From Photobacterium toruni (GTDB taxonomy: Bacteria; Pseudomonadota; Gammaproteobacteria; Enterobacterales; Vibrionaceae), in contig NZ_AP024855.1 of the NCBI RefSeq assembly GCF_024529955.1, forward strand, positions 620,001 through 684,000: a stretch of 64,000 nucleotides of DNA, given 5' to 3'. Below, in pieces: positions 9,077 through 41,587 of this stretch (position 1 is the stretch's first letter; every line of letters starts with the position of its first letter). The translations under genes were made by a program, and so were the position numbers. The notes beneath the pieces are model-generated. The model made no database searches. It saw only the letters and a program-made list of their open reading frames with translations, and had not been told where the DNA came from.

Positions 9077-9095
9077 CACTCTCACTGGTTAACCT

Positions 9096-9128
9096 ATAGG
9101 GATATCACTTTCTGATATCCCTATTATT
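9096..9128 (+). terminator. hairpin between sulfatase and maturase (terminator or attenuator)
   Basis: ATAGGGATATCA (9096-9107) pairs perfectly with TGATATCCCTAT (9113-9124) over a five-base loop. The following T-run is interrupted (TATTTCC), so it probably lowers rather than stops transcription into the maturase gene. Confidence 0.65.
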
Positions 9129-9149
9129 TCCTTTAAAATTTATCAAATT

Positions 9150-10472: not shown

Positions 10473-10497
10473 ATATATGAATACTTCTGGAGTCACT

Positions 10498-11478: not shown

Positions 11479-11483
11479 TCCTG

Positions 11484-15792: not shown

Positions 15793-17072
15793 TGCACCGA
15801 GCACACGCATCCCTTTTACTTATGCTTTTCGTAACCAGTTTTTCTCTTTATGCCAAAGAAGAACCAGTACCGACAATGCAAGAATTGATAAACAATAATA
15901 AAATTACGCTTACTAGTTGGCTAAGCTCGGAAAGCACAAACTTAGATAAGAAAAGACCAACCGTTATTGCTATTAACCAACCTGTTATTCTGACTATTGA
16001 TATTGCGACGCCTCGTTGGTTTACTGATGGAACCGTAATTGAAACCATTTCAATCCCAAACCTTATTGCTCAACAACGTAATTTACAAGCAACCAATTAT
16101 AGCCAGATGGAAGATGAGCAAACTTGGTCGCACCAACGTTGGGAGATTCCTCTTTTTGCTCAGCAATCAGGGCAATTTATCGTGCCATCTATCGGAATCA
16201 AGATTACCGTTTCGGTAGCTACAGGGAAAAATGTGCAAGGCGTATTATTTACCTCCCCACATCGTTTTTCAGTTCAGCGCCCAACAGCAAACATGACTCA
16301 TCCAGATGAATGGATTATTGCACCAGAAGCAGCACTAACCCAAGATTGGCAGGCTTCAACAGCCCAAAAAACTAACGTGGATATTGAAACATCAACATTA
16401 ACCGTGGGTGATGCAATAACTCGAACCATCACATTAAAAGTGCCCGATTCTCTAGCAATGCTATTGCCACCTTTGCTCCCTGCTACACGAAATAAAGCCA
16501 TTCTGCGTTATACCGATCCAATTCAACTCAAAGACATCAACAATAGAGGCGAACATACCGCACTTAGAAAAGAATCTGAAACTTATATTCTACAAACTGG
16601 TGGGGAAGTAATATTGCCAAGTGTTACGGTTCCATTTTGGAACACCACAACACAACAATCTGAAAAATTAGTATTAGAAGGGAAAACGATACGAGTTAAA
16701 CATACATTAATCTCGTGGCTAACCGCTTATTGGTCTATTATTTTTTGTTTGTTTTTTATCTCGACGATTATTTATCTATGCATAAAAAAATTAAAAAGCC
16801 ATTACCAATCTTACCCACTTCCAGATTGGTTATTATTCGCCCTATCCGTTCATAAATCCTCATGGTCAGAAAGTAGATTATATTTATATCGCCGATTATT
16901 TAATAAAACGGGACAGCTAGAATTAATAAAATATGCACTCAAAAACAAATCAAAAATAAATAATGAAAAAGTACAAATATCAACTTTAAAAAAATCATCT
17001 TTATGGAGAATATGGCTAAGTATTAGAAGGAGAAAGGAAGAAAGAAAAAATGAACAAACATACACATTATGA
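15792..17072 (+). CDS. BatD family protein
   Basis: The 426-residue protein starts with a signal peptide (1-21, cleavage after LYA), continues with a periplasmic beta-rich region, has one membrane helix near 309-328 and ends in a basic cytoplasmic tail. This is the BatD (DUF7939/oxygen-tolerance) architecture. It is the last gene of the moxR set, overlapping the previous stop by one base. It probably forms the periplasmic face of the MoxR-VWA membrane complex. The C-terminal tail is unusually lysine- and arginine-rich. No terminator with a clear stem was found directly after it. Confidence 0.85.
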   Translation: MHRAHASLLLMLFVTSFSLYAKEEPVPTMQELINNNKITLTSWLSSESTNLDKKRPTVIAINQPVILTIDIATPRWFTDGTVIETISIPNLIAQQRNLQATNYSQMEDEQTWSHQRWEIPLFAQQSGQFIVPSIGIKITVSVATGKNVQGVLFTSPHRFSVQRPTANMTHPDEWIIAPEAALTQDWQASTAQKTNVDIETSTLTVGDAITRTITLKVPDSLAMLLPPLLPATRNKAILRYTDPIQLKDINNRGEHTALRKESETYILQTGGEVILPSVTVPFWNTTTQQSEKLVLEGKTIRVKHTLISWLTAYWSIIFCLFFISTIIYLCIKKLKSHYQSYPLPDWLLFALSVHKSSWSESRLYLYRRLFNKTGQLELIKYALKNKSKINNEKVQISTLKKSSLWRIWLSIRRRKEERKNEQTYTL

Positions 17073-27934: not shown

Positions 27935-28669
27935 TTATTTTATTAGCTGACAACGGCCAAATGTTTGTAGGTTGTGAAAGTTAGGTTTAGGTGTTTTGGG
28001 ATCTATCCATGTCATCCACCCCATATCCAATTTTCCATCCGCTTGTTGCGTGAACTCTGCCCGCATCAAAGCACACAATAATTGTGTTTGTTGTTTATTC
28101 TGCCACAGCGATAAATCAGTTAATGTTTGTAGCGGTAATTTACCTTCAACGATATAACCGCTATCGGTTAAACTTGCTTTGGTTTCTAAGCCTTTCCATG
28201 TCCAATTACTGTCTAATGATGCCCGTTTTTTATTGACCATGTCATAGCTGGCTTCTGCACTAAACACGCGTGCTTTAGGATCAATTTCCATGGTGTAATA
28301 ACGCGATAATTGCGCATCTTTGGCAAGGAAAATTTCTACTCGATCAGAATCTAAAATAGCACGCTCAGGATCAGTCCCAATCGCTACATTTGCATCCACC
28401 ACTGTATATTGAAAATAGAGTGAATCTGCGTTCCACACTGCTTTAAATTCTGTTGCAGGCGCGGGAGTATCACGCCAAGGGAAAGTAAAATCAGTTAACT
28501 TTTGAGCTGATTTCCATTCATTATCATGGGCAATACCATCAATAACAGGAGCAACCTTGGCATGATTAATATTATATACCGCAGCCACGGAGGCACCTGT
28601 TTCAGCAACTACGTTATAACTTGCCATACTCGCCGTCACTGCGGCAGCTATGATAACTAATTTATTCAT
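27935..28669 (-). CDS. secreted CBM9-like carbohydrate-binding protein
   Basis: The 244-residue protein has a signal peptide (1-22, cleavage near VVA-ETG). The mature part starts with PVIDGIAHDNEWKSAQKLTDF, continues with FKAVWNADSLYFQYTVVD, and has a DRVEIFLA strand and a YTMEIDP segment. These are hallmarks of the CBM9-type/DOMON-like domain found in sugar-binding and haem-binding exported proteins. No catalytic domain is attached. It is the last gene of the minus-strand locus, set off from the GH105 gene by a terminator, so it is probably expressed at a lower or separate level. A role in binding the imported oligosaccharide in the periplasm or at the surface is inferred. Confidence 0.82.
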   Translation of the reverse strand: MNKLVIIAAAVTASMASYNVVAETGASVAAVYNINHAKVAPVIDGIAHDNEWKSAQKLTDFTFPWRDTPAPATEFKAVWNADSLYFQYTVVDANVAIGTDPERAILDSDRVEIFLAKDAQLSRYYTMEIDPKARVFSAEASYDMVNKKRASLDSNWTWKGLETKASLTDSGYIVEGKLPLQTLTDLSLWQNKQQTQLLCALMRAEFTQQADGKLDMGWMTWIDPKTPKPNFHNLQTFGRCQLIK

Positions 28670-28715
28670 TCCAATATCCTTATTTATTGTTTTTAGTTAA
28701 TCCACAATGAATCAG

Positions 28716-28747
28716 AAAAAAAGCCGATCTAACACGTAAATCGGCTT
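28716..28747 (-). terminator. terminator/attenuator between the GH105 gene and the CBM9-like gene
   Basis: On the minus strand ATCGGCTT arm 28740-28747 pairs with 28721-28728 over an 11-base loop and is followed by six or more T. It can limit expression of the downstream CBM9-like gene. Confidence 0.75.
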
Positions 28748-28791
28748 GAACTTACCTGACTTTCAACTTATTACATTGACGTTATTGTTAT

Positions 28792-29844
28792 TTATTCGAC
28801 TAGCTCAACGACAGCGGTTGCGGCTAATAAAAATGCGCCAGCACCGTAATCAATATTATGTTCAAAGGCGACATCACGCGGATTAAATGCAGGTAACTGT
28901 ACCCAACCGATCATGCCATTATCGTGAATACAACTTTGCAGTGCCGTCCATGAGGTTTCAACTACTGGCAGGTATATTTCAGCATCAAGATGACCGTGCT
29001 TAATTCCCCACGCTAAGCCGTAACAGAACAACGCCGTGGCACTGCTTTCTGGGGCGGGGAAATTTTCAGGATCAAGTAAACTTGTACGCCAAAAACCATC
29101 AGCTTGTTGATATTTAATTACTTCTGCAGCAAGTGAGGTAAACAACGCTAAATATTTTTCACGCTGCGGATAATCTTCAGGCATACGGGCTAATAAACGT
29201 GGCACAGCAGCTAATACCCAACCAATACCACGACTCCAGAAAACTTTATTACCGTTAGCTTCACGTAGTTCACCACCATTACCATCAGGAATATAACGAT
29301 AATCACGGTAAAATAAACCCGTTTCAGGATCGAGTAGATGATCTACCGAATCCCAAAATGCGGTATTCATATAATCAAGGTATTTAGGATCCCCCGTACG
29401 TTGGGTTAGTGCAGCAAATGCTGGCGGGGCCATAAATAAGGAATCACACCACCACCAATCTTTACGACCAGCTTGTGGACTATCAACCATAATATCTAAC
29501 GCTTTAATGGTTGGCTCTAACGCTTCAATTTGATCAATTAATGGATAAACATCAAGGTAGGCTTGGCAGCAAATATGATCATCAGCAAAACGCTCATTCG
29601 GACCAGATCTAAAACCAGTATGAAGGGTATAATTCATTACGCCATCAAGGTATTCATTATCATCTGTTGCTAACCATGCTGCAGAGACACATGACCAAAA
29701 TACGCCACGCTCCCAGTCAGTATCTTTAATAAAACGGGTTTTACCGCTGCGACGGACCACACTGCGGGTTTGATTTTGTGCTTGGTAACGATAAACACGC
29801 TTCATTGCCGTTAAAATCGTTTCTTTTGAACCTAATGCTGCCAT
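28792..29844 (-). CDS. GH105-type unsaturated uronyl hydrolase
   Basis: The 350-residue protein is an alpha6/alpha6-barrel glycoside hydrolase of the GH105/GH88 group. D129 in GRKDWWWCD and the ADDH at 87-90 fit catalytic-site segments, and RGIGWVLAAVPRLL is a conserved barrel helix. The enzymes hydrate the 4,5-double bond of an unsaturated uronic acid and so release it from lyase-made oligosaccharides. There is no signal peptide, so it works in the cytoplasm, after uptake. It follows kduD by 12 bases with AAGGAG seven bases before the ATG. The freed keto-uronate would go to KduI and KduD next door. Whether it prefers glucuronyl-GalNAc or rhamnogalacturonyl substrates cannot be told from the sequence. 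Confidence 0.9.
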   Translation of the reverse strand: MAALGSKETILTAMKRVYRYQAQNQTRSVVRRSGKTRFIKDTDWERGVFWSCVSAAWLATDDNEYLDGVMNYTLHTGFRSGPNERFADDHICCQAYLDVYPLIDQIEALEPTIKALDIMVDSPQAGRKDWWWCDSLFMAPPAFAALTQRTGDPKYLDYMNTAFWDSVDHLLDPETGLFYRDYRYIPDGNGGELREANGNKVFWSRGIGWVLAAVPRLLARMPEDYPQREKYLALFTSLAAEVIKYQQADGFWRTSLLDPENFPAPESSATALFCYGLAWGIKHGHLDAEIYLPVVETSWTALQSCIHDNGMIGWVQLPAFNPRDVAFEHNIDYGAGAFLLAATAVVELVE

Positions 29845-29856
29845 GATCTGCTCTCC

Positions 29857-30612
29857 TTAGCGTGCTAACCAACCACCATCAACAGCGATGGTGTAACCAT
29901 TAATATAATCACTCGCACTTGATGCTAAAAAGACCGCAGGGCCTTCTAAATCAGACGGTAATCCCCAGCGATTAGCTGGAATACGCTCTAAAATTGCCGC
30001 ATTACGATCAGCGTCGGCACGTAGTGCTTCAGTGTTATCTGTCGCCATATAACCTGGAGCAATCGCATTAACATTAATATTATATTCAGCGAGTTCAGTT
30101 GCTAATGCGCGGGTTAACCCCATAACTGCAGATTTACTTGCGGTGTATGACGGTACGCGAATACCACCTTGGAAAGATAACATTGAAGCGATATTTATGA
30201 TTTTGCCGCCATTACCTTGTTCAACAAAACGTTTAGCAACCGCTTGTGATAAGAAGAACAGTGTTTTTTGGTTAATATTAATCACATCATCCCAATCACT
30301 TTCAGAAAATTTAAGTAGATCTTGACGACGAATAATGCCAGCGTTGTTAATTAAAATATCAACATGCCCCATCACTTCTACTGCTTCTGCAACGATGCTT
30401 TCAAGCTTATCTTGCTGCATTAAGTTAGCGGTAATGTAATGAAATTTACGTCCTAATGCTTCTACTTGTACTTGAGTTTCAGGCGCTGCTTGATGACCAA
30501 TCCCAACAATATCAGCCCCTGCTTTTGCAAGTCCTAGTGCCATACCTTGACCAAGACCTGTATTACAACCAGTCACAATCGCAACTTTACCGCTTAAATC
30601 AAACATATTCAT
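29857..30612 (-). CDS. kduD: 2-dehydro-3-deoxy-D-gluconate 5-dehydrogenase
   Basis: The 251-residue short-chain dehydrogenase has the cofactor motif TGCNTGLG (14-21), the NNAG segment, and the catalytic S...YTASK triad; APGYMATDNTEALR and the end SDYINGYTIAVDGGW are typical of KduD. It reduces 2,5-diketo-3-deoxygluconate to 2-keto-3-deoxygluconate with NAD(P)H, the step after KduI in the breakdown of unsaturated uronic acids. AAGGA lies nine bases before the ATG. It sits between kduI and the uronyl hydrolase gene on the same strand. Confidence 0.95.
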   Translation of the reverse strand: MNMFDLSGKVAIVTGCNTGLGQGMALGLAKAGADIVGIGHQAAPETQVQVEALGRKFHYITANLMQQDKLESIVAEAVEVMGHVDILINNAGIIRRQDLLKFSESDWDDVININQKTLFFLSQAVAKRFVEQGNGGKIINIASMLSFQGGIRVPSYTASKSAVMGLTRALATELAEYNINVNAIAPGYMATDNTEALRADADRNAAILERIPANRWGLPSDLEGPAVFLASSASDYINGYTIAVDGGWLAR

Positions 30613-30693
30613 CGAGTTCTATCCTTGTATAGTAACGCTAACAATAGTGGCCAGCGTTACCAGCTAAATTGATTAATGATCAGCCACAGTAGC

Positions 30694-31524
30694 TTATTTA
30701 AGATCGCTCATCGCGACATGATCCATATCGTGGAAGGTTTGGTTTTCACCCACCATGCCCCAAATAAAGGTATACGCTGCAGTACCAACACCGGAGTGAA
30801 TTGACCAACTAGGACTAATCACAGCTTGTTCATTGCGTACCACAATATGGCGCGTTTCTTGAGGCTCACCCATGTAATGGAACACGATGTTGTCTTGGCT
30901 CATATCAAAATATAAATACACTTCCATGCGACGCTCATGGGTATGACATGGCATAGTGTTCCACAAACTACCTGCAGCGAGTTCCGTCATGCCCATTAAT
31001 AACTGACAGGTTGGTAACACTGATGGGTGTAAGTACTTATAAATAGTACGAACATTACAGTTTTCTTGACTACCAATTTGCTCTGGCGAGGCTTCTTCAC
31101 GGGTAATCTTACGGGTTGGGTAACAGTGATGAGCAGGGGCACAATTTAAGTAAAAACGTGCAGGTTGCTCGGCAATCACACTTTCAAACCGAATATCTTT
31201 AGCGCCCATACCAACATAAATAGCTTCACGTGAACCAATCTCAAAAGTTTCACCATCAACAATCACTAACCCTGGTGCACCGATATTGATCACACCTAAT
31301 TCGCGACGTTGTAAAAAGTAATCAACCCCAATTTCTTTACCGCCTTCAAACTCGATAGCGGTTGTGGTCGGCACTGCAGCCCCCACAATAATGCGATCGA
31401 TATGGCTGTAAGTAAGGTTGATCTCACCTTCTTGAAACATATTTTCAATTAAGAATTGCTCACGAATACCCGCAGTATCTAATTGCTTGGCATGCTGACT
31501 ATGAATTGGTTGACGAATTTCCAT
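30694..31524 (-). CDS. kduI: 5-dehydro-4-deoxy-D-glucuronate isomerase
   Basis: The 276-residue cupin-type enzyme is the full length of KduI. The metal-binding histidines lie in the [18 protein letters not shown] segment. The end [23 protein letters not shown] is characteristic. It isomerises 5-keto-4-deoxyuronate, the form taken by a released unsaturated uronic acid, to 2,5-diketo-3-deoxygluconate. GAGG lies six bases before the ATG. It precedes kduD and follows agaA by about 78 bases, joining the uronate branch to the amino-sugar branch in one transcript direction. Confidence 0.97.
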
Positions 31525-31602
31525 GAAAAACCTCTTAAATCATTACATTATTCAGTACCCACACCACAAAAATACGGCATAAACACTGACGAAGTATTGC
31601 TA

Positions 31603-32757
31603 TTAATTTGATGCTGGGTAATACCATTCACCATCAATTAACGTTGCTTGAATTTCAAATTGTGTATTAAGTACGGCAAAACTGGCGTTATATTTAGGAG
31701 CGATAGCACCTAGTTGATCGTCAATCCCCAAATACTTTGCAGGGACTGAGGTTGCCATCTGGATTGCTTCCCATTCAGGTACATTGGCTAACAAAATCAT
31801 ATTGCGAATAGCTTGATCTAAACTGCAAGTGCTTCCCGCTAATGAACCATCATCAGTACGAGCTTCACCATTAGTAACGGTTACCATCTGCGCACCAAGT
31901 TGGTACTTACCATCATTAAGACCACCAGCACGCATACAATCAGTGATTAATGCCATACCTTGGTAGCCCTTGATACGATAAGAAAGTTGCATCATTACAG
32001 GGTGAACATGAATACCATCAGCAATCAGTTCAACTAACATATCGTGATAAAGCACAGCCCCTGCACAACCCGGTTCACGATGATGCAAACCACTCATGCC
32101 GTTAAATAAATGCACTCCACAATCAGCACCGTGTTGATGCGCTTGGGTCACTTGTTCAAAATTGGCATTAGTGTGTGCTACTGAAGTTTTTATACCGTTA
32201 TCGGTTAACCATTGAATAGCTTCATTAGCACCATCATATTCAGGAGCAAGGGCTACGCGTAATAATGAATCTGCAGCAACTTCTTTTAATTCTGCTAACG
32301 CCGCAATGGTTGGCGCGGTTAAATATTGAGTTGGGTGTGAACCTCGGTGTGTGGCTGTAAAGTAAGGTCCTTCAAGAAAGCTGCCTAATAACCTTGCACC
32401 TGATTGTTGCGGTTGCTCACAAAAATGACGAACTTGCTGTAAAGCAGACACAATGTCTAACCATGGTGCGGTTACTGTGGTTCCAACCCATGCCACCACC
32501 CCCGTCGCTGGCAATGCTTGGGCTATGGTTTGTAACGCTGCTGGCGTTGCATCCATAACATCAGCGCCTGCACGACCATGAATATGAATATCAATAAAAC
32601 CAGGAACTAATGTTTGGTCTTCTAATTCAATCACTTCACAATCGAGAGGTCGGCTATCAGTAACGCTTTCAATCTTACCGTTATTCACGACTACATAGTG
32701 GTTATAACGGATCCCAGAAGGAGTGAATACTCGTTGCGGATGAAGTGCAAAGCGCAT
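31603..32757 (-). CDS. agaA: N-acetylgalactosamine/glucosamine-6-phosphate deacetylase, AgaA/NagA family
   Basis: The 384-residue amidohydrolase has the HIHG metal motif (PGFIDIHIHGRAGAD), the EGPY segment, later histidines in AHTNANF and GVHLFNGM, and the catalytic aspartate in LITDCMRAGG. It removes the acetyl group from an N-acetylhexosamine 6-phosphate in the cytoplasm. NagA and AgaA are hard to separate by sequence; the position between the Aga-type PTS and agaS/agaZ favours GalNAc-6-phosphate. It starts two bases after the IIA stop codon, so the two are translationally coupled. Confidence 0.9.
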   Translation of the reverse strand: MRFALHPQRVFTPSGIRYNHYVVVNNGKIESVTDSRPLDCEVIELEDQTLVPGFIDIHIHGRAGADVMDATPAALQTIAQALPATGVVAWVGTTVTAPWLDIVSALQQVRHFCEQPQQSGARLLGSFLEGPYFTATHRGSHPTQYLTAPTIAALAELKEVAADSLLRVALAPEYDGANEAIQWLTDNGIKTSVAHTNANFEQVTQAHQHGADCGVHLFNGMSGLHHREPGCAGAVLYHDMLVELIADGIHVHPVMMQLSYRIKGYQGMALITDCMRAGGLNDGKYQLGAQMVTVTNGEARTDDGSLAGSTCSLDQAIRNMILLANVPEWEAIQMATSVPAKYLGIDDQLGAIAPKYNASFAVLNTQFEIQATLIDGEWYYPASN

Positions 32758-32759
32758 AA

Positions 32760-33203
32760 TTACAGCCCGTCTTCACATTCAAATTCAGTCGGCTGCGCCA
32801 TCATACTATTAAGCTCACGACGCATGTCTTTCATGCATGACATACCAATATCAAGCAGCGTATCAACAAGCTCGGTTAAATCAGCATCATCACGTTCAAA
32901 AGCAGCATTGGCGATCATCGGTAAATTAGCGCCACCAATAAGTTCAATATTCGGGGTATCCATCAATATTGCTAACGCACGATTAGCAGGGGAACCGCCA
33001 GGAATATCAGTTAAAAACAACACGCCATCGCCACTATCTACATCAGCAGCTGCTTGACGTAATGCAAGTTCTAACTCATCAGTAGACATAGTTTCAACAA
33101 AATCTACATACGTCATTTGCTGTTGCTCACCCGCGATAGCACGAACAGCCGATTCCATACCCGATGCAAAGTTAATATGACCTGAAACAACGATACCAAT
33201 CAT
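32760..33203 (-). CDS. PTS mannose/sorbose-family IIA component
   Basis: The start at 33203 has AAGGA seven bases upstream; ten extra codons upstream are not supported. The 147-residue protein has the phosphorylated histidine H9 in VVSGHINFA and the FLTDIPGGSPANRA segment of the EIIA-Man fold. It accepts phosphate from HPr and passes it to IIB. It lies after IID and before agaA in the operon and corresponds to AgaF of E. coli. Confidence 0.92.
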   Translation of the reverse strand: MIGIVVSGHINFASGMESAVRAIAGEQQQMTYVDFVETMSTDELELALRQAAADVDSGDGVLFLTDIPGGSPANRALAILMDTPNIELIGGANLPMIANAAFERDDADLTELVDTLLDIGMSCMKDMRRELNSMMAQPTEFECEDGL

Positions 33204-33288
33204 GATTCTTTCCTTGAAAATAAGGGGGAGCACCGTCCCCCTTGATATTATTGATGATGACTCTCATCACCACTAAGCAATGGTCTTA

Positions 33289-34182
33289 TTACAAAATACC
33301 CAGCATATGACCAACAACACCTGCCGCTAGTGTGCTGAAAATCAACACTGGCGGTTTAGCCCAGAACCCTGTGCCTTTCACCATTTTGAGCATGAAGAAC
33401 ACCAGCATCAGTGGCAGAATATTTGGCATCACCTTGTCAAATAATGCGGTCTGCAAGTCCACCACTTTTCCCCCCAGTTCGAGACTGAGGGTGGTCTGCA
33501 CTTTAATAAAGGTCGCAGAGAGCGCACCAATAACAAAGATACCCATAATATTGGCGGCTTTTGCCAACTTTTCAGTTGAATCGCTCATGTTAACCATCGC
33601 GGCAGTACCCGCTTTGTAACCCATGAACATCAAACCAAAGTAAACGGCAAAGTGAACAATTTGGTACAAGAAGAAGAACACAAATGGACCTGCAATCGAG
33701 CCTTCCATTGCAATTGACGCACCTAACGCTAGGGTTAATGGCATCAATGTCATGTGGTCGATGGCATCACCGATACCGCCAGTTGGTCCCATGCCAGCAA
33801 CTTTCATTACGTTAACCGTTGATGGTTTTTCTTTGTTTTCTTCCATCGCAATCGCTGTACCTAATAAGAAGGTAAACAGCTTAGGTGAAGCATTGAAAAA
33901 CTGAAGGTGGTTCTTTAATGCTTTGGCTAAATCGGCTTTGTTATCACCGTGAATTTTTTTCAGTGCTGGAATAATTGAGTAAGCAAAACCACCCGCTTGC
34001 ATACGTTCAAAGTTAAAGTTACCTTCCATAAATAGACCGCGGATAGAACACATCCAAAGGTCTTTCTTAGTGATCACTTTACGTGGCGTGGTATCTTCAT
34101 ACGCATCGATATCATCAACCAAACTTACATGTTCTTCCGTGTTTTTATCGCGAAGTGTTCCCGCAGTGATATCAGATGCCAT
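33289..34182 (-). CDS. PTS mannose/sorbose-family IID component
   Basis: The start at 34182 (GGGGA eight bases upstream) gives 297 residues and an 11-base overlap with the IIC gene; a 25-codon longer frame would overlap by 86 bases. The protein has the IID signature: ITKKDLWMCSIRGLFMEGNFNFERMQAGGFAYSI near the N-terminus, a VAGMGPTGGIGDAIDHMTLMPL segment, and C-terminal membrane helices. With IIC it forms the membrane channel of mannose-type PTS systems. It corresponds to AgaE. Confidence 0.92.
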   Translation of the reverse strand: MASDITAGTLRDKNTEEHVSLVDDIDAYEDTTPRKVITKKDLWMCSIRGLFMEGNFNFERMQAGGFAYSIIPALKKIHGDNKADLAKALKNHLQFFNASPKLFTFLLGTAIAMEENKEKPSTVNVMKVAGMGPTGGIGDAIDHMTLMPLTLALGASIAMEGSIAGPFVFFFLYQIVHFAVYFGLMFMGYKAGTAAMVNMSDSTEKLAKAANIMGIFVIGALSATFIKVQTTLSLELGGKVVDLQTALFDKVMPNILPLMLVFFMLKMVKGTGFWAKPPVLIFSTLAAGVVGHMLGIL

Positions 34183-34945
34183 CTTCAAATTCCCCAGGTT
34201 GATTGTTGTTAGAGCCGCCGTTGTTTGAACCGCTAAAGAAGTAGTACAGTGCTGCAATTGAGGCGCCGATAATCGCGACAGCCATAATTGGTAGTTTTAA
34301 GTAAGTTGTCATTACAAAGCCAATGAAGAACACCCCAGCCACTTCTTTTGACCACATAATTTTCAACAACATAGCGAAACCAATCGCAGGAACCATCTTG
34401 GCACCAATACCTAAACCTGTTAGCAGTGCTTTGGGTGCGTTTTCATCAATCCAAGTTGCAGCATGCTCTCCAAAGTAAACGGTTACAAAAGCAACTGAGG
34501 CATACAACATCGCACGTAATAATATTGTGACAATTAACAGTTTATCGATACCCGCAGAATCTCCACGCTCTGCAAAGCGATCCGCTTTACCCATTGTGAA
34601 TGATGTCATTGCGAAGAAGCCAATAACCAACATTTGCATCATTACTGCAATCGGCATACCGACGCCCATTGCCACTTCTGCTGACTGACCCGTCATTACT
34701 GCAAAAGCAACCGCAGCAATCGTACCTAACGTTACATCTGGTGGCTGAGCCCCCGCGTTAGGCACTAAACCTAACCAAGCAAGTTCTAATGTCGCACCAG
34801 CAATCAAACCAATTTGCATGTCACCCATGATCAAGCCCACAACCGGACCTGTAATAAGCGGACGGTGAATATTCAATGCAACATCGTATTTATCGATACC
34901 ACAAAAGAAAGCCCACACCGCTACTAACGCAGCTTCAAAAAACAT
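34172..34945 (-). CDS. PTS mannose/sorbose-family IIC component
   Basis: The 257-residue membrane protein has about seven to eight hydrophobic helices. GPVVGLIMGDMQIGLIAGATLELAWLG followed by GAQPPDVTLGTI is the conserved IIC motif of the mannose/GalNAc class. It is the main sugar-translocating subunit. Compared with E. coli it corresponds to AgaW/AgaC. It lies 42 bases after IIB and overlaps IID. Confidence 0.92.
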   Translation of the reverse strand: MFFEAALVAVWAFFCGIDKYDVALNIHRPLITGPVVGLIMGDMQIGLIAGATLELAWLGLVPNAGAQPPDVTLGTIAAVAFAVMTGQSAEVAMGVGMPIAVMMQMLVIGFFAMTSFTMGKADRFAERGDSAGIDKLLIVTILLRAMLYASVAFVTVYFGEHAATWIDENAPKALLTGLGIGAKMVPAIGFAMLLKIMWSKEVAGVFFIGFVMTTYLKLPIMAVAIIGASIAALYYFFSGSNNGGSNNNQPGEFEDGI

Positions 34946-34987
34946 GATTTATTCCTTTTTACACGTTTGGCGTTTGACTATCGCGAT

Positions 34988-35488
34988 TTAAGCAGCGCTG
35001 GTAGCCAGTTCAAGTACATCGATTGGTTTCTGATCAGGCGTATTTTGAATAGTACAAGTTACTCCTTTCGCGACCATGCGTTCAAAAGCGTTAATGTCTT
35101 TATCATCGACAGAAACTGTCTTATTAATCTGACGCTTACCTTCGTGATAATGCATATTACCAACGTTGCAATGAGTAATAGGCACCCCACCTTCGACTAA
35201 ACGCGCCACATCAGTTGGGTTATTACACAACACAAAAATCTTTTGTTGCGGAGAAGCTTTACCTATAACATCAATTGTTTTTTGGATTGAGAAGAAACGT
35301 ACTGCGTATTCTCCCCCTGCTGATGCTTTCATACCTGCTTGCATAAAAGCCGCATTTGGGCCTTCAGCTGCATCATCATTGGCAACCAAAATAAGGTTAG
35401 CGCCTGAATGTTTACCCCAAGTAATACGAATTTGACCATGTAGCAAACGTTCATCAATTCGTGTCCATACAATGTTTGGCGTTGTCAT
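34988..35488 (-). CDS. agaV: PTS mannose/sorbose-family IIB component
   Basis: The 166-residue protein has the phosphorylated histidine in IDERLLHGQIRITWG, the IIB-Man signature (H17). It phosphorylates the incoming sugar during transport by IIC/IID. The order IIB-IIC-IID-IIA and the neighbours agaS, agaZ and agaA match the N-acetylgalactosamine PTS (AgaV class). In this locus the carried substrate may be an unsaturated uronyl-GalNAc disaccharide rather than free GalNAc; that is inference from the hydrolase genes. Confidence 0.9.
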   Translation of the reverse strand: MTTPNIVWTRIDERLLHGQIRITWGKHSGANLILVANDDAAEGPNAAFMQAGMKASAGGEYAVRFFSIQKTIDVIGKASPQQKIFVLCNNPTDVARLVEGGVPITHCNVGNMHYHEGKRQINKTVSVDDKDINAFERMVAKGVTCTIQNTPDQKPIDVLELATSAA

Positions 35489-35508
35489 GATTGTTCTACC
35501 TTTCGTAA

Positions 35509-36681
35509 TTATTTCAAATAATCATATAAATAATGGATAGTAACTCCTTGTACTACACGGTTAACTTCGCCAGTAGGACATGGGTTATCAGGTGTATTTC
35601 CTAGTGCAAGTGCGCGATGGAACGCGTACATTTGCGCATACAGCATATAAGGAAAAAGTAATTCAACATCTGTCGCGGTTTCCATGCCAGGGACATGAAT
35701 AACATCAGCACTTGCTTCAATCTCATCCACTTGCGCTGTAATCGCTACCACTCGAGCTGCAATATTATCGCGACAAAGTTCAGTTAACAGATCTAAGTCA
35801 TATTTACGGGTATATGGGTCGTTACTTATGAACACCACAATCATCGTATTTTGATTCACAATAGATTTGGGTCCATGGCGGAACCCTAATGGAGAATCAA
35901 ATGTTGCAACGACTTTACCTGAAGTTAGTTCAAGTAATTTCAATGCCGATTCTTGGGCTAAGCCTTGTAAACCACCACTGCCTAAATAAATAACCCGTTC
36001 AAGTTCTTGATTAGCAGTATCCTTTATTTTGGTATTTAAATCTTTGATCAAACCCACAGAACACTTACAAATGCTTTCGATATCTTTCGTGTAATCGTTG
36101 CCATACATTAGAACCGAAAAAGCTGCTACCATCATTGATGAAAAACTTGATGTCATGGCAAAAGATTGATCATTGGTTTCTGCTGGCATTAGTAATGCAA
36201 ATGATTGCTTATCATTTTCGCAACACTTATATAACTTTCCATCTGCATTACAGGTCAACACTAGGTGGAAACATTCCGTTAAGGTTTGATTAGCAAGCTC
36301 AACCGCAGCCACACTTTCAGGACTATTACCAGAGCGCGCAAACGACACTAATAACGTTGGAATATTTTCAGCAAAACACTGGCTAGGATTAGAAACAATA
36401 TCAGTGGTTGAGATAGCTTCTACACGACGTTGTAAACGCTGAGAAAGGCCTAATGCTAATGAACGACCAGCGAATGCTGACGTACCCGCCCCGGTTAAAA
36501 CAATGCGTAAATTAGAGTAACCATAAACCTTATCCATAAAGCATTTAATTTGCGCTTCACACTCACGCGTAATTGCCGCTGTTTGCGCCCAACAATCAGG
36601 TTGCTGGTTGATTTCTTTCGCGGTCCAATACCCCGAGAAACGTTGAAGTTCAGCTGCTGAATAACCTAAATATTGTTCCAT
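35509..36681 (-). CDS. agaS: AgaS-family sugar isomerase/deaminase (SIS domains)
   Basis: The 390-residue protein has two SIS domains (LTGAGTSAFAGRSL near residue 60; YLGSGGLQGLAQESALKLLELTSGKV near 225) and the FRHGPKSIV active-site segment. AgaS acts as galactosamine-6-phosphate deaminase/isomerase, giving tagatose 6-phosphate and ammonia after AgaA. Length and neighbours agree. It begins four bases after the agaZ stop codon, so it is co-translated with agaZ. Confidence 0.94.
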   Translation of the reverse strand: MEQYLGYSAAELQRFSGYWTAKEINQQPDCWAQTAAITRECEAQIKCFMDKVYGYSNLRIVLTGAGTSAFAGRSLALGLSQRLQRRVEAISTTDIVSNPSQCFAENIPTLLVSFARSGNSPESVAAVELANQTLTECFHLVLTCNADGKLYKCCENDKQSFALLMPAETNDQSFAMTSSFSSMMVAAFSVLMYGNDYTKDIESICKCSVGLIKDLNTKIKDTANQELERVIYLGSGGLQGLAQESALKLLELTSGKVVATFDSPLGFRHGPKSIVNQNTMIVVFISNDPYTRKYDLDLLTELCRDNIAARVVAITAQVDEIEASADVIHVPGMETATDVELLFPYMLYAQMYAFHRALALGNTPDNPCPTGEVNRVVQGVTIHYLYDYLK

Positions 36682-36685
36682 GTAT

Positions 36686-37981
36686 TTAAACCTCTGCGAT
36701 TAATTTTTCAGTACATGCTTGAGAGTAAGCACGTAAAACTTGACGAATAGTGTCTAATACCAACACCTTAGGATCTGATGAGATTAAGCCTTCACGCAGA
36801 TGTTGAAATTGCTGTGGCATATATTGACTAAGAAGCGGTAACGGAATCTCAACTCGAGATAAATTTCTAAATAAGGTTGCTTGAGCTTGATTGATCACAC
36901 TATCAGGCCAGTAATAACGCATACGATCGCTAAAGCTAAAGCAGCGTGAGAAGCGTTGTTCAGATTCATTACCGTGATAATATTTTTGCCAATGCTGCGG
37001 CGCTTCACACATTTGTGCTTCAATACATTCACGCAAATTAGAACAATGTGCTTTAGGAATAATTTCAGCTTCAATTTCACATAAATTAAATAGCGCTTCA
37101 CGCATCGCAAAAGTCAAAGCTGGGCCGACTTTTAAAATAGCAAAGTGATCTTGTACTAATTGACGATAAGCGGCATGAGTTTGATAGTCTGTCGAGTGTG
37201 CTTCAAATACCATCTGGGGAAAACTATCAACCACATGACTTAATTGATTTGCTTTCTCTGGGCAATAATCAATAACGCCGGTGTGATCAAATTCAACCCC
37301 AGGTTGCACCACTAATCCAATCACACGCGTCCAACAATCAGCGATACCCGCCTCAGTAAACGCTCGTTGATGAGTTTCGATTGTTTTCATTGCAGCTTGC
37401 GGAGAGGTAACTTCAACGGTATTTAATGTTTCAGCAGCTCCACCAGGTACAGGGACTTCAGTACCAATAACGTAAACTAAATCACTATAACCAAAAGATT
37501 CTATCGCTGTTTTTTCAGCAATCGCACCTAAACGTGCAGCACGCTGAGCAACAATTTCATCACAAAGAGGAATCGGATCATCAGCACAAGACATGCTGCA
37601 ATCTAAATGGATTTTCTTAAAACCAGCAGCGACATAAGCAGCAATTAAATCATCGGCATTTAACATCGCAGCTTCAGCAGAGAGATGTTGCCAACGGTTA
37701 GGACCTAAATGATCGCCACCTAAAATAAGATTATCGGTAGGAAAGTGGAATTGTTCAGCCATCGCTAATACAAAATGACGAAAATCAATCGGAGTCATTC
37801 CGGTGTAGCCACCAAATTGATCCACTTGATTTGATGTCGCTTCGATTAATAAAACTGAACCATCATCCAACGCTTGAGAAAATGCAGCCTCAATGACAAG
37901 CGGGTGTGCAGAACAAACAGCATAAATACCATTGTTACCGCCTGTTTTATGACGTTGAACGAGAGTTTGTAGGGTGTTCAT
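36686..37981 (-). CDS. agaZ: tagatose-1,6-bisphosphate aldolase non-catalytic subunit, AgaZ/KbaZ type
   Basis: The 431-residue protein matches GatZ/KbaZ across its length: [16 protein letters not shown] near the start, [31 protein letters not shown] and [11 protein letters not shown]. KbaZ stabilises the catalytic subunit (KbaY/GatY) that splits tagatose 1,6-bisphosphate to dihydroxyacetone phosphate and glyceraldehyde 3-phosphate. No catalytic subunit gene is in the window. It is the first gene after agaR, 49 bases downstream, and its ribosome binding site lies inside a strong hairpin. Confidence 0.93.
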
Positions 37982-37987
37982 TAATTA

Positions 37988-38023
37988 ACTCCATAATCAT
38001 CATCTGTGACATGATCATGGAGT
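37988..38023 (-). promoter_or_regulatory. RNA hairpin covering the agaZ ribosome binding site
   Basis: In the agaR-agaZ gap the transcript contains a 13-base arm (38011-38023) that pairs fully, with one G-U wobble, with 37988-38000 over a 10-base loop. The second arm includes the GGAG at 37989-37992 that serves as ribosome binding site for agaZ (ATG at 37981). No T-run follows, so it is not an ordinary terminator. It may hide the binding site, mark an RNA cleavage point, or make agaZ depend on translation arriving from agaR. Confidence 0.7.
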
Positions 38024-38030
38024 CAATAAG

Positions 38031-38807
38031 TCAATGCTCTTTTTCGACGATAATAACTTCAACTTTCATTTCACGAAGACCAGCTAAATAATCTTCAGGA
38101 ATGCCCGCATCTGTTACTAGGATATCAATATTTCCGAATTCACGAATCATATGGCAGCTACGTTTACCAAATTTGGTCGAATCAGCGACTGCAATCACTT
38201 GTTCAGAAATTTCACACATTAAACGATTGAGGCTCGCCTCTTGCTCACTGTGCGTGGTGATACCTGCTCGCAAGTCAAAGCCATCAACTCCTAGAAAAAC
38301 TTTATCAAAACAAAAGTTTTTAAGGCCAGCTTCTGCTTGTGAGCCTGAAAAAGATAACGCTTCTTTACGAAGTACGCCACCTGACATTAATACTTCAACA
38401 CCGGGTGCTGAAGCCAACTCCATAGCCACATCCAGACCATTGGTCATAACAACAACATTTTCCATACTTTTTAAGCTGGCTGCGATTTCACGCGTTGTTG
38501 TCCCTGAATCTAAAATCACAGTGTCGCCATGATGAATAAGCTTGGCAGCAGCTTGGCCAAGGAGCGATTTCACTCCCGCATTATGCCGACGCTTTTCATG
38601 AATGGTTAATTCAGCAATCACACCTGAGTTAGGAATTGCTGCGCCATGAGAGCGCACAACATAACCATTCTTTTCCAAGAAACTCAGATCACTGCGAATA
38701 GTGACACTAGATACATTAAATTTTTCAGCGAGATCCTCGACACGGGCTTTTCCTTCTAGATTCACCACGTTGACGATTTCCATTCGCCTTTCAATTGCAC
38801 TTTTCAC
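38031..38807 (-). CDS. agaR: DeoR-family repressor, AgaR-like
   Basis: The 258-residue protein has the DeoR winged helix (residues 1-57; VEDLAEKFNVSSVTIRSDLSFLEKNG) and a C-terminal sugar-phosphate sensing domain with DSGTTTREIA, TNGLDVAMEL, MSGGVLRKEALSFSG and LGVDGF segments, as in AgaR and GlpR. It lies at the head of the aga operon and is divergent from the sulfatase-porin genes. The gap it faces is full of CTTTC repeats like those in AgaR operators. The likely inducer is a galactosamine 6-phosphate compound or a phosphorylated disaccharide; this is inferred from the family. Confidence 0.93.
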   Translation of the reverse strand: MKSAIERRMEIVNVVNLEGKARVEDLAEKFNVSSVTIRSDLSFLEKNGYVVRSHGAAIPNSGVIAELTIHEKRRHNAGVKSLLGQAAAKLIHHGDTVILDSGTTTREIAASLKSMENVVVMTNGLDVAMELASAPGVEVLMSGGVLRKEALSFSGSQAEAGLKNFCFDKVFLGVDGFDLRAGITTHSEQEASLNRLMCEISEQVIAVADSTKFGKRSCHMIREFGNIDILVTDAGIPEDYLAGLREMKVEVIIVEKEH

Positions 38808-38838
38808 TTTTGTCTCCTTGTGAAATCAATCAAAATTA

Positions 38839-39127
38839 CTTTCATTTGATTTCGAAATAAGCTTACACCTAAAAAATAAAGCCACAATGCACTAAGACAA
38901 AACTTTTGATCTCTTTCACATTCTTTCGTTATCTTTCACAAAAACTCATGCATACTTGCGTAAGTCTTTCTATCATATAGAACGAAAGTCAATAAACCAA
39001 CCTTTCATCCTTTCAATTTATAAAATAGCACTGAGGCTCCATAATATTTACTGCAATAAAACAAGTGATTACATTATTTTGCTTTCATTTTCTTTTATGT
39101 GATCGATTACACAGTCATAAAGCTTTC
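38839..39127. promoter_or_regulatory. array of CTTTC repeats, candidate AgaR operators
   Basis: In this divergent gap CTTTC occurs at 38839, 38913, 38923, 38933, 38966, 39002, 39010, 39082 and 39123, and its complement GAAAG at 38984. Those at 38913, 38923 and 38933 are spaced exactly ten bases, one helical turn. Known AgaR operators contain repeated TTTCRTTT elements, and TTTCATTTGATTTC (38840-38853) and TTTCATTTTCTTTT (39083-39096) fit this well. The array would control both agaR-agaZ and the sulfatase-porin genes. Confidence 0.7.
39098..39113 (+). promoter_or_regulatory. CRP-like site upstream of the Tat sulfatase gene
   Basis: TGTGA-TCGATT-ACACA matches the CRP consensus TGTGA-N6-TCACA at nine of ten positions. 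A TACGAT at 39135-39140 would be a -10 box, giving a start near 39147 and placing the site centre near -41.5, the class II activator position. Confidence 0.65.
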
Positions 39128-39202
39128 ATTAACTTACGATACGAAGCAAATCAAAGGTACATAATCCAATTGTTTCTATTTATCATTAATAAGGATTCGT
39201 TG

Positions 39203-40756
39203 ATGTCTATCTCACGCAGAGGATTACTGAAAGGTATGGCAGCCAGTGGTGCTGTTGCTGCAACCTTATCAGCTGGTTATACCCAAGCTGCAACTGCATC
39301 TACATTAAGCTCAAAGAGATCATTAAAAAAACCCAATTTAGTCATTATATTTCCTGATGAATTTCGAGCTCAGGCATTAGGGTTTATGCAACAAGATCCA
39401 TCAATGACCCCTAATATTGATAAGTTTGCTCGCCAAAGTGCAGTATTACGTCAAGCTGTTTCTAACTTTCCACTATGTACTCCATTTCGTGGCATGTTAA
39501 TGACTGGGCAATACCCTTACCGTAATGGTATTCAAGGCAATAGCCACACTGGTGTTGAAGGCCAATTTGGTGGTAAAGATTTTGGTATTGAACTAAAGAA
39601 AAGCACCTTAACTTGGTCTGATGTTTTGAAAAAGCAAGGCTATAGCATGGGCTACATTGGCAAGTGGCACTTAGATGCACCACAAGCGCCTTTCATTCCT
39701 AGTTACAATAATCCCGCAGAAGGACGTTATTGGAATGATTGGACAGCCCCAGATCGTCGCCATGGCTTTGATTTCTGGTATGCCTATGGCACCTATGATA
39801 AGCATATGACGCCAATGTATTGGACCAATGATACTACCCGCGATAAGCCACTACGAATAAATCAGTGGAGCCCTGAGCACGAAGCAGATATTGCTATTAA
39901 ATATTTACGTAATGAAAATGGTCAATACCGTAAACAAGATCAACCGTTTACGTTAGTGGTTTCTATGAATCCGCCCCACTCGCCTTATGATCAAGTACCA
40001 CAAAAATATTTAGATCGCTTTAGTGGTAAAACATCACAGCAATTAAATACTCGTCCAAATGTACAGTGGGATAAAGCCTATCAAGAAGGCTATGGTCCGC
40101 AGTTTTTCAAAGAATATATGGCGATGGTTAATGGAGTTGATGAGCAATTTGGACGCATTGTTGATGAATTAGATCGCCTTAATCTTACCGAAGATACCTT
40201 AGTGGTGTTTTTCTCTGATCACGGCTGTTGTATGGGTTCAAATGGTAACCCAACCAAAAATGTTCATTATGACGAAGCAATGCGTATTCCAATGATTTTC
40301 CGTTGGCCTGGCAAGCTTAATCCACAACAAAATGATCTGTTATTTTCAGCACCCGATATTTACCCAACCATGCTGGGCTTAATGGGAATGGAAGATTTGA
40401 TCCCTGATACCGTTGAAGGCACTAACTTCGCCAATACGCTCCGTGGTATTGAGGGTGATAGTAAACCAACCTCGCAATTTTATACTTTTATGCCTTATGG
40501 CGGTCAGTCATATGGGCGTCGAGGCATTCGCTCACAGCGTTATACCTTAATGATTGATAGAAAAATTGGAAAGCCACTGACTTATGTGTTGCATGACAAT
40601 CAAATCGACCCATACCAAATGGATAATATTGCAGCCACTAATCCAATGCTTATCGATAAATTAATTACCGAAGAATTAATACCATGGCTTGAGCACACTG
40701 GCGATCCATGGCGACCAACAACCGTACCGGCACACAGTGCCAATGCGTATTTATAG
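39203..40756 (+). CDS. Tat-exported sulfatase, Cys-type
   Basis: The start at 39203 has AAGGA seven bases upstream and yields 517 residues; the longer frame before it has no support. The N-terminus S-R-R-G-L-L-K (4-10) followed by a hydrophobic stretch and TQAATA is a twin-arginine signal, so the enzyme is folded before export. The sulfatase motif is C-T-P-F-R at 92-96; C92 would become formylglycine. Metal residues are seen in FPDEFR and FFSDHG. The position divergent from agaR and upstream of a KdgM porin points to removal of sulfate from an oligosaccharide in the periplasm. Which sulfate (4-O, 6-O or 2-O) is not determinable. The maturase at 9.2 kb could serve it. Confidence 0.92.
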   Translation: MSISRRGLLKGMAASGAVAATLSAGYTQAATASTLSSKRSLKKPNLVIIFPDEFRAQALGFMQQDPSMTPNIDKFARQSAVLRQAVSNFPLCTPFRGMLMTGQYPYRNGIQGNSHTGVEGQFGGKDFGIELKKSTLTWSDVLKKQGYSMGYIGKWHLDAPQAPFIPSYNNPAEGRYWNDWTAPDRRHGFDFWYAYGTYDKHMTPMYWTNDTTRDKPLRINQWSPEHEADIAIKYLRNENGQYRKQDQPFTLVVSMNPPHSPYDQVPQKYLDRFSGKTSQQLNTRPNVQWDKAYQEGYGPQFFKEYMAMVNGVDEQFGRIVDELDRLNLTEDTLVVFFSDHGCCMGSNGNPTKNVHYDEAMRIPMIFRWPGKLNPQQNDLLFSAPDIYPTMLGLMGMEDLIPDTVEGTNFANTLRGIEGDSKPTSQFYTFMPYGGQSYGRRGIRSQRYTLMIDRKIGKPLTYVLHDNQIDPYQMDNIAATNPMLIDKLITEELIPWLEHTGDPWRPTTVPAHSANAYL

Positions 40757-40799
40757 CCGTTCCAAAAATAACCTGTAATACCATTTTTTATTCATTTGA

Positions 40800-40826
40800 C
40801 GCTTTCTCTATTGAACAGAGAAAGCG
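40800..40826 (+). other. intergenic hairpin between sulfatase and porin genes
   Basis: CGCTTTCTCT (40800-40809) pairs perfectly with AGAGAAAGCG (40817-40826) over a seven-base loop. No T-run follows, so it is more likely an mRNA processing or stability element than a terminator. It also contains a CTTTC on each strand. Confidence 0.55.
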
Positions 40827-40858
40827 CACCAAAACTCATACTAAATTAAGGACAATCA

Positions 40859-41587
40859 ATGAATACCATCACTAAAGTAATCCTTGCGACGACCCTTTTA
40901 TCAGCAACAAGTTTTAGCTATGCCAATGATTACAAAACCACGATTGAATATCGCCATGAATATCGCGATGGTACGAATCGTCATGGTGATCGTGTAAAAG
41001 CCTTTTTAGATACAGGTAAAAATATTGGTTTTGAATTAGACGCTCGTTATAACAATGATCAACTCAACACCATGTTTGATGGTATGACTATGAACGGTTC
41101 TGAGTTTTCAACCTATTATTATAAGAAATTAACTGACAATATTATGGGTATCGGTGGTCTTTCTTTTGATTTTACCCCTGCCGGACTCGTCTATGTTCCT
41201 TATGCACGTTTAAATTACCGTTTTGATAATGGTATTCGTGTTCAAGGTCGTTATAAGTGGAAATTCTGGGATTATAATCAACAAAACCAAAACAAAGAGA
41301 ATTACGTCTCTAAAATCCAAGAGGTCGATTTCTGGCTAGGCTACAATACTACCAATTGGGACTTCCAATATGAGTTCCAAATTTGGAAAGAAATGGAAAG
41401 TAAAGCACTGCCACAATTTGATAATAAAGATACAAACTATCTGCATAACTTCCGCTTAATGTACACCTACAAAACCGTTGAAGGCACAATGTGGCGTCCC
41501 TTCGTAGAAGTCGGTAATGTGAGTCAAAGTCGCTACACTGATAACCGTCAAACACGTTACCGCATGGGTATTAAATACACATGGTAA
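40859..41587 (+). CDS. KdgM-family oligosaccharide porin
   Basis: The 242-residue protein has a signal peptide (1-22, cleavage after SYA) and a 12-strand porin pattern: YKTTIEYRHEYRDGTNRHGDRVKA at the start, alternating aromatic strands, and the terminal GIKYTW ending in an aromatic residue, as outer-membrane barrels do. This is the KdgM/NanC family of monomeric porins for acidic oligosaccharides. AAGGAC lies before the ATG. Located behind a sulfatase and facing the Aga/Kdu genes, it probably lets unsaturated acidic oligosaccharides into the periplasm. Confidence 0.92.
   Translation: MNTITKVILATTLLSATSFSYANDYKTTIEYRHEYRDGTNRHGDRVKAFLDTGKNIGFELDARYNNDQLNTMFDGMTMNGSEFSTYYYKKLTDNIMGIGGLSFDFTPAGLVYVPYARLNYRFDNGIRVQGRYKWKFWDYNQQNQNKENYVSKIQEVDFWLGYNTTNWDFQYEFQIWKEMESKALPQFDNKDTNYLHNFRLMYTYKTVEGTMWRPFVEVGNVSQSRYTDNRQTRYRMGIKYTW

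Follow-up and report, generated by a model that had tools for sequence, protein, structure and literature searches.

A predicted phosphotransferase route for chondroitin disaccharides in Photobacterium toruni

The window analysed here is a 64,000-nucleotide stretch of the Photobacterium toruni genome (G000:C2:620001-684000; 4.5 Mb in 7 contigs), and the homologies of its genes make it very likely that it holds a locus for the utilisation of chondroitin or dermatan sulfate (CS/DS). There, a phosphotransferase system (PTS) of the mannose family, with EIIA, B, C and D, stands next to a cytoplasmic unsaturated uronyl hydrolase of family GH105. Our explanation of the whole, to which we give a probability of roughly 0.78, is that the window is the uptake and catabolic half of a CS/DS regulon controlled by the repressor AgaR, in which the PTS imports the disaccharide. 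The analysis computed gene content, homology, PTS phylogeny, co-occurrence and a common operator-like repeat, and from these we infer every substrate, transport and phosphorylation step below.

In the pathway we propose, exported chondroitinase-ABC-type and PL8 lyases, both encoded elsewhere, would break the polymer down into unsaturated oligo- and disaccharides, and these would cross the outer membrane, probably through the KdgM-type porin. Sulfate would be removed by exported sulfatases, namely the 4-O-sulfatase of the window and probably two others encoded elsewhere. The desulfated delta-uronyl-N-acetylgalactosamine disaccharide would then be imported by the four-subunit PTS, which should phosphorylate C6 of its N-acetylgalactosamine (GalNAc) on uptake, and the cytoplasmic GH105 enzyme would split it into unsaturated uronate and GalNAc-6-phosphate. 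The uronate would pass through KduI, KduD, a KdgK-like kinase and Eda to pyruvate and glyceraldehyde-3-phosphate, and GalNAc-6-phosphate would pass through AgaA, AgaS and KbaYZ to tagatose phosphates and on to triose phosphates.

The transporter and its partner hydrolase

An earlier note on this DNA had proposed that the PTS takes up the lyase-made disaccharide, and sequence comparison suggests that this is likely, because the phylogeny sets the transporter apart from the GalNAc PTSs. IIC and IID sequences were concatenated (45 rows) and a maximum-likelihood tree was built from them, for which 26 loci of the window type were hand-picked for spread, one of them dropping out. The PTSs of 25 chondroitin sulfate (CS) loci and five loci of a hyaluronan (HA) type, one of these from an Escherichia coli island, formed one group with support of 100/100; the HA-type label here and below denotes likeness of content to the Vibrio alginolyticus locus of PMC8222515. 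E. coli AgaW/AgaE and six GalNAc-type PTSs of Vibrionaceae formed a separate group (100/99), and constraining the window-type PTSs to join these seven rows was rejected by the approximately unbiased (AU) test (p-AU 1.9e-73, for a grouping chosen after the tree had been seen). By the tree, by the AU test and by an IID score below the AgaE cut-off, the PTS lies outside the AgaVWEF GalNAc clade. Two further PTSs that are GalNAc-type by their neighbours (L131 and L132) sat on long branches with another PTS group, and the GalNAc label of L126 and L127 was given by similarity, few aga genes being seen.

The transporter also travels with the hydrolase. Among 329 Vibrionaceae genomes, 39 carried a window-type IIC (at least 76% identity, two of them partial or fragmented), and all 39 had a strong GH105 match. 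Strong hydrolase matches occurred in 46 of the 329, a number reached by dropping four weak ones (31-36% identity) from the 50 genomes at E <= 1e-40, and the remaining seven of the 46 had an IIC at 47-52% identity. Because the line for this second IIC class was drawn at 239 bits in knowledge of which genomes had the hydrolase, above a group at no more than 215 bits found elsewhere in the tree, its perfect fit is partly of our own making, and we count only the 39 of 39 as evidence of co-occurrence. A window-type IIC was likewise present in 23 of the 24 Vibrionaceae genomes with an ABC-type lyase.

The chief alternative is that the PTS carries free GalNAc only, the disaccharide being split outside the inner membrane or imported otherwise and the uronate genes being merely co-located. 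We consider this unlikely. In Vibrio relatives a canonical aga operon exists separately, with an IIC of only about 41% identity (L125, L128-L130), and one genome (G285) has both such an operon and a CS locus. Salmonella enterica subsp. arizonae and diarizonae carry stripped versions (L072 and L073), which keep the PTS, GH105, two sulfatases, a maturase and a DUF2264 gene without Aga or lyase genes in the fetched stretch; that of arizonae (L072) also has agaR (found by tblastn), and no AgaA, AgaS or AgaZ was found beside its PTS, the search being confined to the locus. Moreover, HA-type loci couple a sister PTS with GH105 without Aga enzymes. The PTS phylogeny tracks GH105, not Aga. It is because of the tree, the IIC-GH105 co-occurrence, the separate Vibrio aga operons and the Salmonella locus lacking AgaA, AgaS and AgaZ that we favour the disaccharide over GalNAc.

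Several observations weigh against uptake of the disaccharide. NCBIfam names IIA, IIB and IIC as GalNAc PTS subunits, each above its cut-off, and the aga enzymes are encoded within the operon. A ptsH mutant of Proteus mirabilis is reported to have a growth defect on chondroitin sulfate C, which we count in favour of our explanation, but the authors read the phenotype as GalNAc uptake and the mutant also grows much less on free GalNAc (PMC13289894); chondroitin lysis in Proteus vulgaris is described as inducible by GalNAc (review, PMC9067506). Since ptsH is needed for good growth on GalNAc and the GalNAc models are passed, GalNAc may be a further substrate of the PTS or even its actual one, and transport of both sugars is quite possible. 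No ATP-binding cassette or tripartite ATP-independent periplasmic (TRAP) transporter genes were seen in the locus, to which this observation is confined; another uptake route is possible. Four of the 46 GH105 genomes had no lyase by either search, and the closest solved hydrolases, an enzyme of the same family from ulvan degradation and enzymes from Bacteroides, are not known to act on glycosaminoglycan (GAG) disaccharides.

The earlier note's proposal of cytoplasmic splitting has computational support. The hydrolase of the window, the sole GH88/105 match in the genome, has no export signal by eye, which speaks against transport of GalNAc only. Sequence and predicted fold both place it in GH105, with the conserved aspartate present; a GH88 unsaturated glucuronyl hydrolase (UGL) was considered for this enzyme and is the less favoured assignment on the same grounds. 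Only positions 39, 69 and 75 differ cleanly between the GH105 proteins of CS-type and HA-type loci, and the idea of a simple specificity code was set aside. The window IID is the sole EIID match in the genome.

A DUF2264 protein encoded in a linked cluster described below (L117:12965-14524) shows remote homology to BcGDH, a glucuronate dehydratase whose family is the former GH154 (profile E 1.3e-18 to 9O4U). All ten active-site residues mutated in BcGDH are identical in it and are invariant in 17/17, an agreement that we also count in favour of disaccharide uptake. Its comparison with the GH105 profile gave no match, PADLOC assigned it to no family, and no paper with the word DUF2264 was found in the open-licence literature. 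In Bacteroides caccae PUL25, BcGDH and the unsaturated uronyl hydrolase BcGH88 are reported to work on chondroitin fragments (PMC12269599). The pairing of a glucuronate dehydratase with such a hydrolase is common to the two systems, whereas the B. caccae hydrolase is a GH88 enzyme, with no PTS mentioned in the parts of that paper cited here, and the P. toruni hydrolase belongs to GH105 and stands with a remote homologue of BcGDH. By this homology, the linked DUF2264 protein probably dehydrates saturated glucuronic acid (GlcA) ends, which would yield substrate for the same GH105 enzyme.

Polymer, lyases and sulfatases

The earlier note had taken chondroitin or dermatan as the target and had placed desulfation outside the cytoplasm, and both proposals gain computational support from the window sulfatase and from the lyases of the genome. 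The sulfatase, predicted to be exported by twin-arginine translocation (Tat), combines a CxPxR motif with near full-length homology to endoVB4SF, a CS/DS 4-O-endosulfatase (PDB 6J66, 4e-298, 993 bits; the match spans residues 2-517 of 518 given). Its action may be endo or exo, because exoPB4SF of a Photobacterium is 83% identical to endoVB4SF and yet is reported to be strictly exolytic (PMC6581707). A search of the rest of the genome for PL8-type lyases, which the earlier note had suggested, returned one match to the PL8 N-terminal model, on contig C1 (L002:13076-15607). The genome also encodes a chondroitinase-ABC-type lyase of 1032 amino acids (L117:6381-9479; PDB 2Q1F 7e-135, 1HN0 2.6e-68). 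In the region of L002 and L003, the PL8 gene adjoins a P2-like prophage, and its product has a GlyGly-CTERM-like tail (both by eye).

Two other sulfatases may contribute. That of the linked cluster (L117:11220-12878) has an unnamed sulfatase and carrageenan sulfatases as its closest matches, with human GALNS lower down, and a second Tat sulfatase (L154:10325-11950) has arylsulfatase 6HHM and iduronate-2-sulfatase as its best PDB matches; assigning 6-O and 2-O roles to these two would be a guess.

Hyaluronan is unsulfated and yields N-acetylglucosamine (GlcNAc). That the locus serves this polymer instead of chondroitin is very improbable: the C1 PL8 lyase does resemble xanthan (346 bits) and hyaluronate (330) lyases ahead of chondroitin AC lyase (282), and the same GH105 lineage is present in HA-type loci, but the GalNAc-pathway genes agaS, kbaZ and kbaY, with three sulfatase genes, lie in or near operator-like boxes, and Aga enzymes and CS sulfatases occur in none of the four HA-type loci. 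Least likely of all is a locus for pectin or another plant or algal uronide, for although KdgM, KduI and KduD are classical pectin-pathway proteins, all present here, and the closest solved GH105 comes from ulvan degradation, the 4-O-sulfatase matches 6J66, Aga enzymes are encoded, and ABC-type lyase genes lie in the linked cluster and adjoin the Proteus versions of the locus.

Gene layout and a linked cluster

Fourteen of the 14 genes that the earlier note had named were found at or very near the coordinates it gave, with family models in agreement (Table 1). Transcription on the minus strand runs agaR, kbaZ/agaZ, agaS, IIB, IIC, IID, IIA, agaA, kduI, kduD, GH105, CBM9, with a gap holding a terminator-like hairpin (by eye) between the last two genes, and the Tat sulfatase and kdgM genes diverge from agaR on the plus strand. 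IIA starts at 33203 and IID at 34182, the latter overlapping IIC; the sulfatase most likely starts at ATG 39203 rather than GTG 39065. IIB contains ERLLHGQ, which we take to be its histidine motif. Outside the chondroitin locus, the window holds, at 7556-10472 and 10477-17072, another sulfatase, which by eye has a motif of S-T-A-G-R type, together with a maturase of its own, followed by genes of MoxR/DUF58/VWA type (by eye).

Table 1. Features of the locus, in window coordinates.
Feature	Position	Strand	Basis
CBM9-like protein, predicted secreted, accessory	27935..28669	-	Pfam CBM9_1 2.8e-34; signal peptide by eye
GH105-type unsaturated uronyl hydrolase, predicted cytoplasmic	28792..29844	-	Pfam Glyco_hydro_88; GH105 by sequence and predicted fold
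kduD	29857..30612	-	NCBIfam TIGR01832 427 bits, cut-off 338.85; SDR family
kduI	30694..31524	-	NCBIfam NF002091 454, cut-off 250
agaA-like N-acetylhexosamine-6-phosphate deacetylase	31603..32757	-	TIGR00221 nagA 317, cut-off 225.65; NagA-like amidohydrolase; agaA name from context
PTS IIA (AgaF type)	32760..33203	-	NF040761 AgaF 159.5, cut-off 130; EIIA-man
PTS IID	33289..34182	-	Pfam EIID-AGA 1.7e-79; 249 against AgaE cut-off of 500 (below)
PTS IIC	34172..34945	-	NF040757 AgaW 328, cut-off 300; EII-Sor
PTS IIB	34988..35488	-	NF008508 (N-acetylgalactosamine IIB) 185, cut-off 180; PTSIIB_sorb
agaS deaminase/isomerase	35509..36681	-	TIGR02815 569.7, cut-off 529.2; SIS family
kbaZ/agaZ, tagatose-1,6-bisphosphate aldolase subunit	36686..37981	-	NF012002 KbaZ 766, cut-off 707; GatZ_KbaZ
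agaR repressor	38031..38807	-	NF040755 AgaR 414, cut-off 260; DeoR
Putative AgaR operators, two overlapping CTTTC-N5-CTTTC repeats	38913..38937	+	Repeat statistics and genome scan
Putative AgaR operator, upstream of likely sulfatase start	39082..39096	+	Repeat statistics and genome scan
Predicted Tat-exported CS/DS GalNAc-4-O-sulfatase, Cys type (CTPFR)	39203..40756	+	PDB 6J66 match; Tat signal by eye
KdgM-type outer-membrane porin for acidic oligosaccharides	40859..41587	+	Pfam KdgM 1.3e-35

The pathway steps absent from the window are encoded in a second cluster on the same contig, about 165 kb away (L117, C2:815001-835000), which holds the ABC-type lyase, an anaerobic sulfatase maturase, a sulfatase, the DUF2264 protein, kbaY, a kdgK-like kinase and eda. 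Model scores are above cut-off for kbaY (tagatose-bisphosphate aldolase, 504 against 443.55) and eda, and below it for the kinase (357 bits against 400). With this kbaY, AgaR, AgaA, AgaS, KbaZ and KbaY of the canonical aga (GalNAc) operon are all present, and kduI and kduD of the window together with the kdgK-like gene and eda cover the uronate route to pyruvate. In relatives such as Photobacterium lucens (L050), Photobacterium indicum (L062) and Budvicia (L067) the two gene sets are partly or wholly joined, most genes of the second cluster lying no more than 10 kb after the GH105 gene; therefore, what is one cluster elsewhere seems, as far as gene order can tell, to have been split in the window genome.

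A repeat may join the parts. In the 350 bases upstream of agaR in 56 regions (55 loci and the window), there were 47 CTTTC pairs at an exact 10-base spacing on both strands, where 100 dinucleotide shuffles gave 0.16 on average, and the 15-base box was present in 38 of the 56 regions against 0.38 shuffled, although many of these regions come from close relatives and are not independent. Genome-wide, eight of the 18 CTTTCRNNNNCTTTY sites fall into three groups: three between agaR and the window sulfatase; three that separate the ABC lyase from the maturase, of which one is inside the called maturase frame; and two where the L154 Tat sulfatase starts (C2:1102325), an enzyme that is perhaps a third sulfatase of the AgaR regulon, to judge by these boxes. 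Two results of the scan count on the other side. The 18 sites compare with 13 for a reversed control, and single boxes therefore mean little; and no operator box was found at the C1 PL8 gene in the scan of L002, so a link of that gene to AgaR through an operator was dropped.

Related loci and what they suggest

When named genomes were scanned for relatives of the GH105 enzyme, 68 loci were obtained, 63 of them at 60% identity or more. These 63 comprise 59 of the window type (CS-type) and four of the HA type (L096-L099); in the five distant loci (34-43% identity) no PTS was seen. Since 59 of the 68 GH105 loci share the locus type, the gene set is not due to chance. Fetched stretches reach 10 kb and some stop at contig ends, so the counts among the 59 are lower bounds: IIA, IIB and IIC 58 each, IID 59 and all four subunits 57; AgaA 53, AgaS, AgaZ and AgaR 56 each, KduI 45 and KduD 44; window-type sulfatase 39, maturase 39, second sulfatase 22 and DUF2264 22; CBM9 15, KdgM 10, KbaY 12 and a lyase 27. 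The PTS occurs together with AgaA, AgaS and AgaZ in 52, any CS-type sulfatase or maturase in 58 and a sulfatase proper in 48. The four HA-type loci all pair the PTS with GH105, and have PL8, DUF2264 and KduD in three each; Aga enzymes, CS sulfatases and maturase were found in none of their fetched stretches.

Hosts include Photobacterium, Aliivibrio, Vibrio, Psychromonas, Proteus, Providencia, Edwardsiella, Yersinia, Budvicia, Pasteurellaceae and the two Salmonella enterica subspecies, arizonae and diarizonae. Related loci are thus widespread in gut and marine bacteria and are no oddity of one genome; the window hydrolase shares 97% identity with those of Photobacterium malacitanum and Photobacterium aquimaris. 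The locus is also plasmid-borne, for example in Vibrio diabolicus (L156): 32 records of a plasmid collection matched the hydrolase at E <= 1e-40, five of them at 60-80% identity, two of these five being chromosome-sized Proteus records. E. coli AH65 (L133) has an HA-type island with PTS, GH88/105, DUF2264, PL8 lyase, gluconate 5-dehydrogenase and autotransporter genes, and part of the window IIC DNA (26% covered among the matches listed) occurs in 46 of 5426 E. coli genomes, one of which was inspected. A Vibrionaceae stretch (L122:3993-11043) encodes another mannose-family PTS together with a PL8-like protein of 1064 amino acids and a protein that by eye resembles MurQ, and related PTS and PL8-like genes recur in L121 and L123.

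The closest known system is the chondroitinase ABC operon of P. vulgaris and P. mirabilis, for which the part of a review cited here lists two lyase genes, a sulfatase, an unsaturated hydrolase and putative PTS genes (PMC9067506). The ten Proteus loci that we compared (L079, L083-L087, L089, L090, L092 and L100) share the order agaR-Z-S-IIBCDA-agaA-kduI-kduD-GH105 at 52-88% protein identity, and eight have ABC-lyase-like genes downstream. P. toruni differs in keeping its lyase, second sulfatase and kbaY in the second cluster, and in having the divergent 4-O-sulfatase and KdgM beside agaR and the CBM9 protein at the end. The aga operon of E. coli (AgaVWEF, ATCC 8739) shares AgaR, KbaZ, KbaY, AgaS, a NagA-type deacetylase and a mannose-family PTS, but that PTS belongs to the separate clade and the operon has no GH105, kdu, porin or sulfatase gene.

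Hyaluronan loci provide the other comparison. V. alginolyticus LWW-9 is reported to have a four-component PTS, a GH88 enzyme and two PL8 enzymes (2021; PMC8222515), and Enterobacter asburiae a PTS-based hyaluronan locus (PMC11432990); both share a PL8 lyase, a hydrolase annotated as GH88 and a PTS, and uptake of the disaccharide by the PTS was proposed from gene content. Unlike the window locus, they are not for sulfated GalNAc polymers, and neither Aga enzymes nor CS sulfatases were found in HA-type loci; the LWW-9 locus is counted as HA-type from its description rather than by comparison of sequences. In Streptococcus the wild type depolymerised and assimilated hyaluronan and a mutant disrupted in the PTS genes of the GAG cluster could not (PMC6837340). 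The clusters of Streptococcus agalactiae and Streptococcus pneumoniae, compared by description, share a PTS, a cytoplasmic unsaturated uronyl hydrolase and DhuI/DhuD, but they are Gram-positive, use a GH88 UGL and not GH105, handle GlcNAc and not GalNAc, and have no porin. The earlier note's view that a disaccharide PTS would be unusual in Vibrionaceae does not hold, given the published V. alginolyticus locus and strong hydrolase matches in 46 of 329 genomes. Our searches of the open-licence literature turned up no experiment in which a Gram-negative bacterium was tested for uptake of a chondroitin disaccharide by a PTS.

PTS-type GAG loci in Vibrio, Enterobacter and Streptococcus, and PTS genes in the P. 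vulgaris chondroitinase operon, are thus already known; what is new here, all of it at the level of sequence, is the PTS phylogeny with apparent swapping of modules, the putative split AgaR regulon and the predicted dehydratase function of the DUF2264 protein. More tentatively, and at somewhat less than even odds, a single gammaproteobacterial GAG-disaccharide PTS lineage may travel with GH105, and often with DUF2264, its specificity being for the uronyl disaccharide, while amino-sugar modules are swapped around it (Aga enzymes and sulfatases for chondroitin, none for hyaluronan) and the dehydratase opens saturated phosphorylated GlcA-GalNAc to GH105. If so, an intracellular dehydratase-hydrolase pair would act on PTS-phosphorylated sugars.

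Chondroitinase ABC of Proteus is a standard tool enzyme, and in the cited part of the literature the transport step of its producers is represented by the listing of putative PTS genes (PMC9067506). The PTS phylogeny and the swap of chondroitin and hyaluronan modules offer a testable alternative to the GalNAc reading, namely that the PTS carries the unsaturated disaccharide. They also come with a suggested function for DUF2264 proteins, and an annotation as GalNAc PTS may hide a disaccharide transporter.

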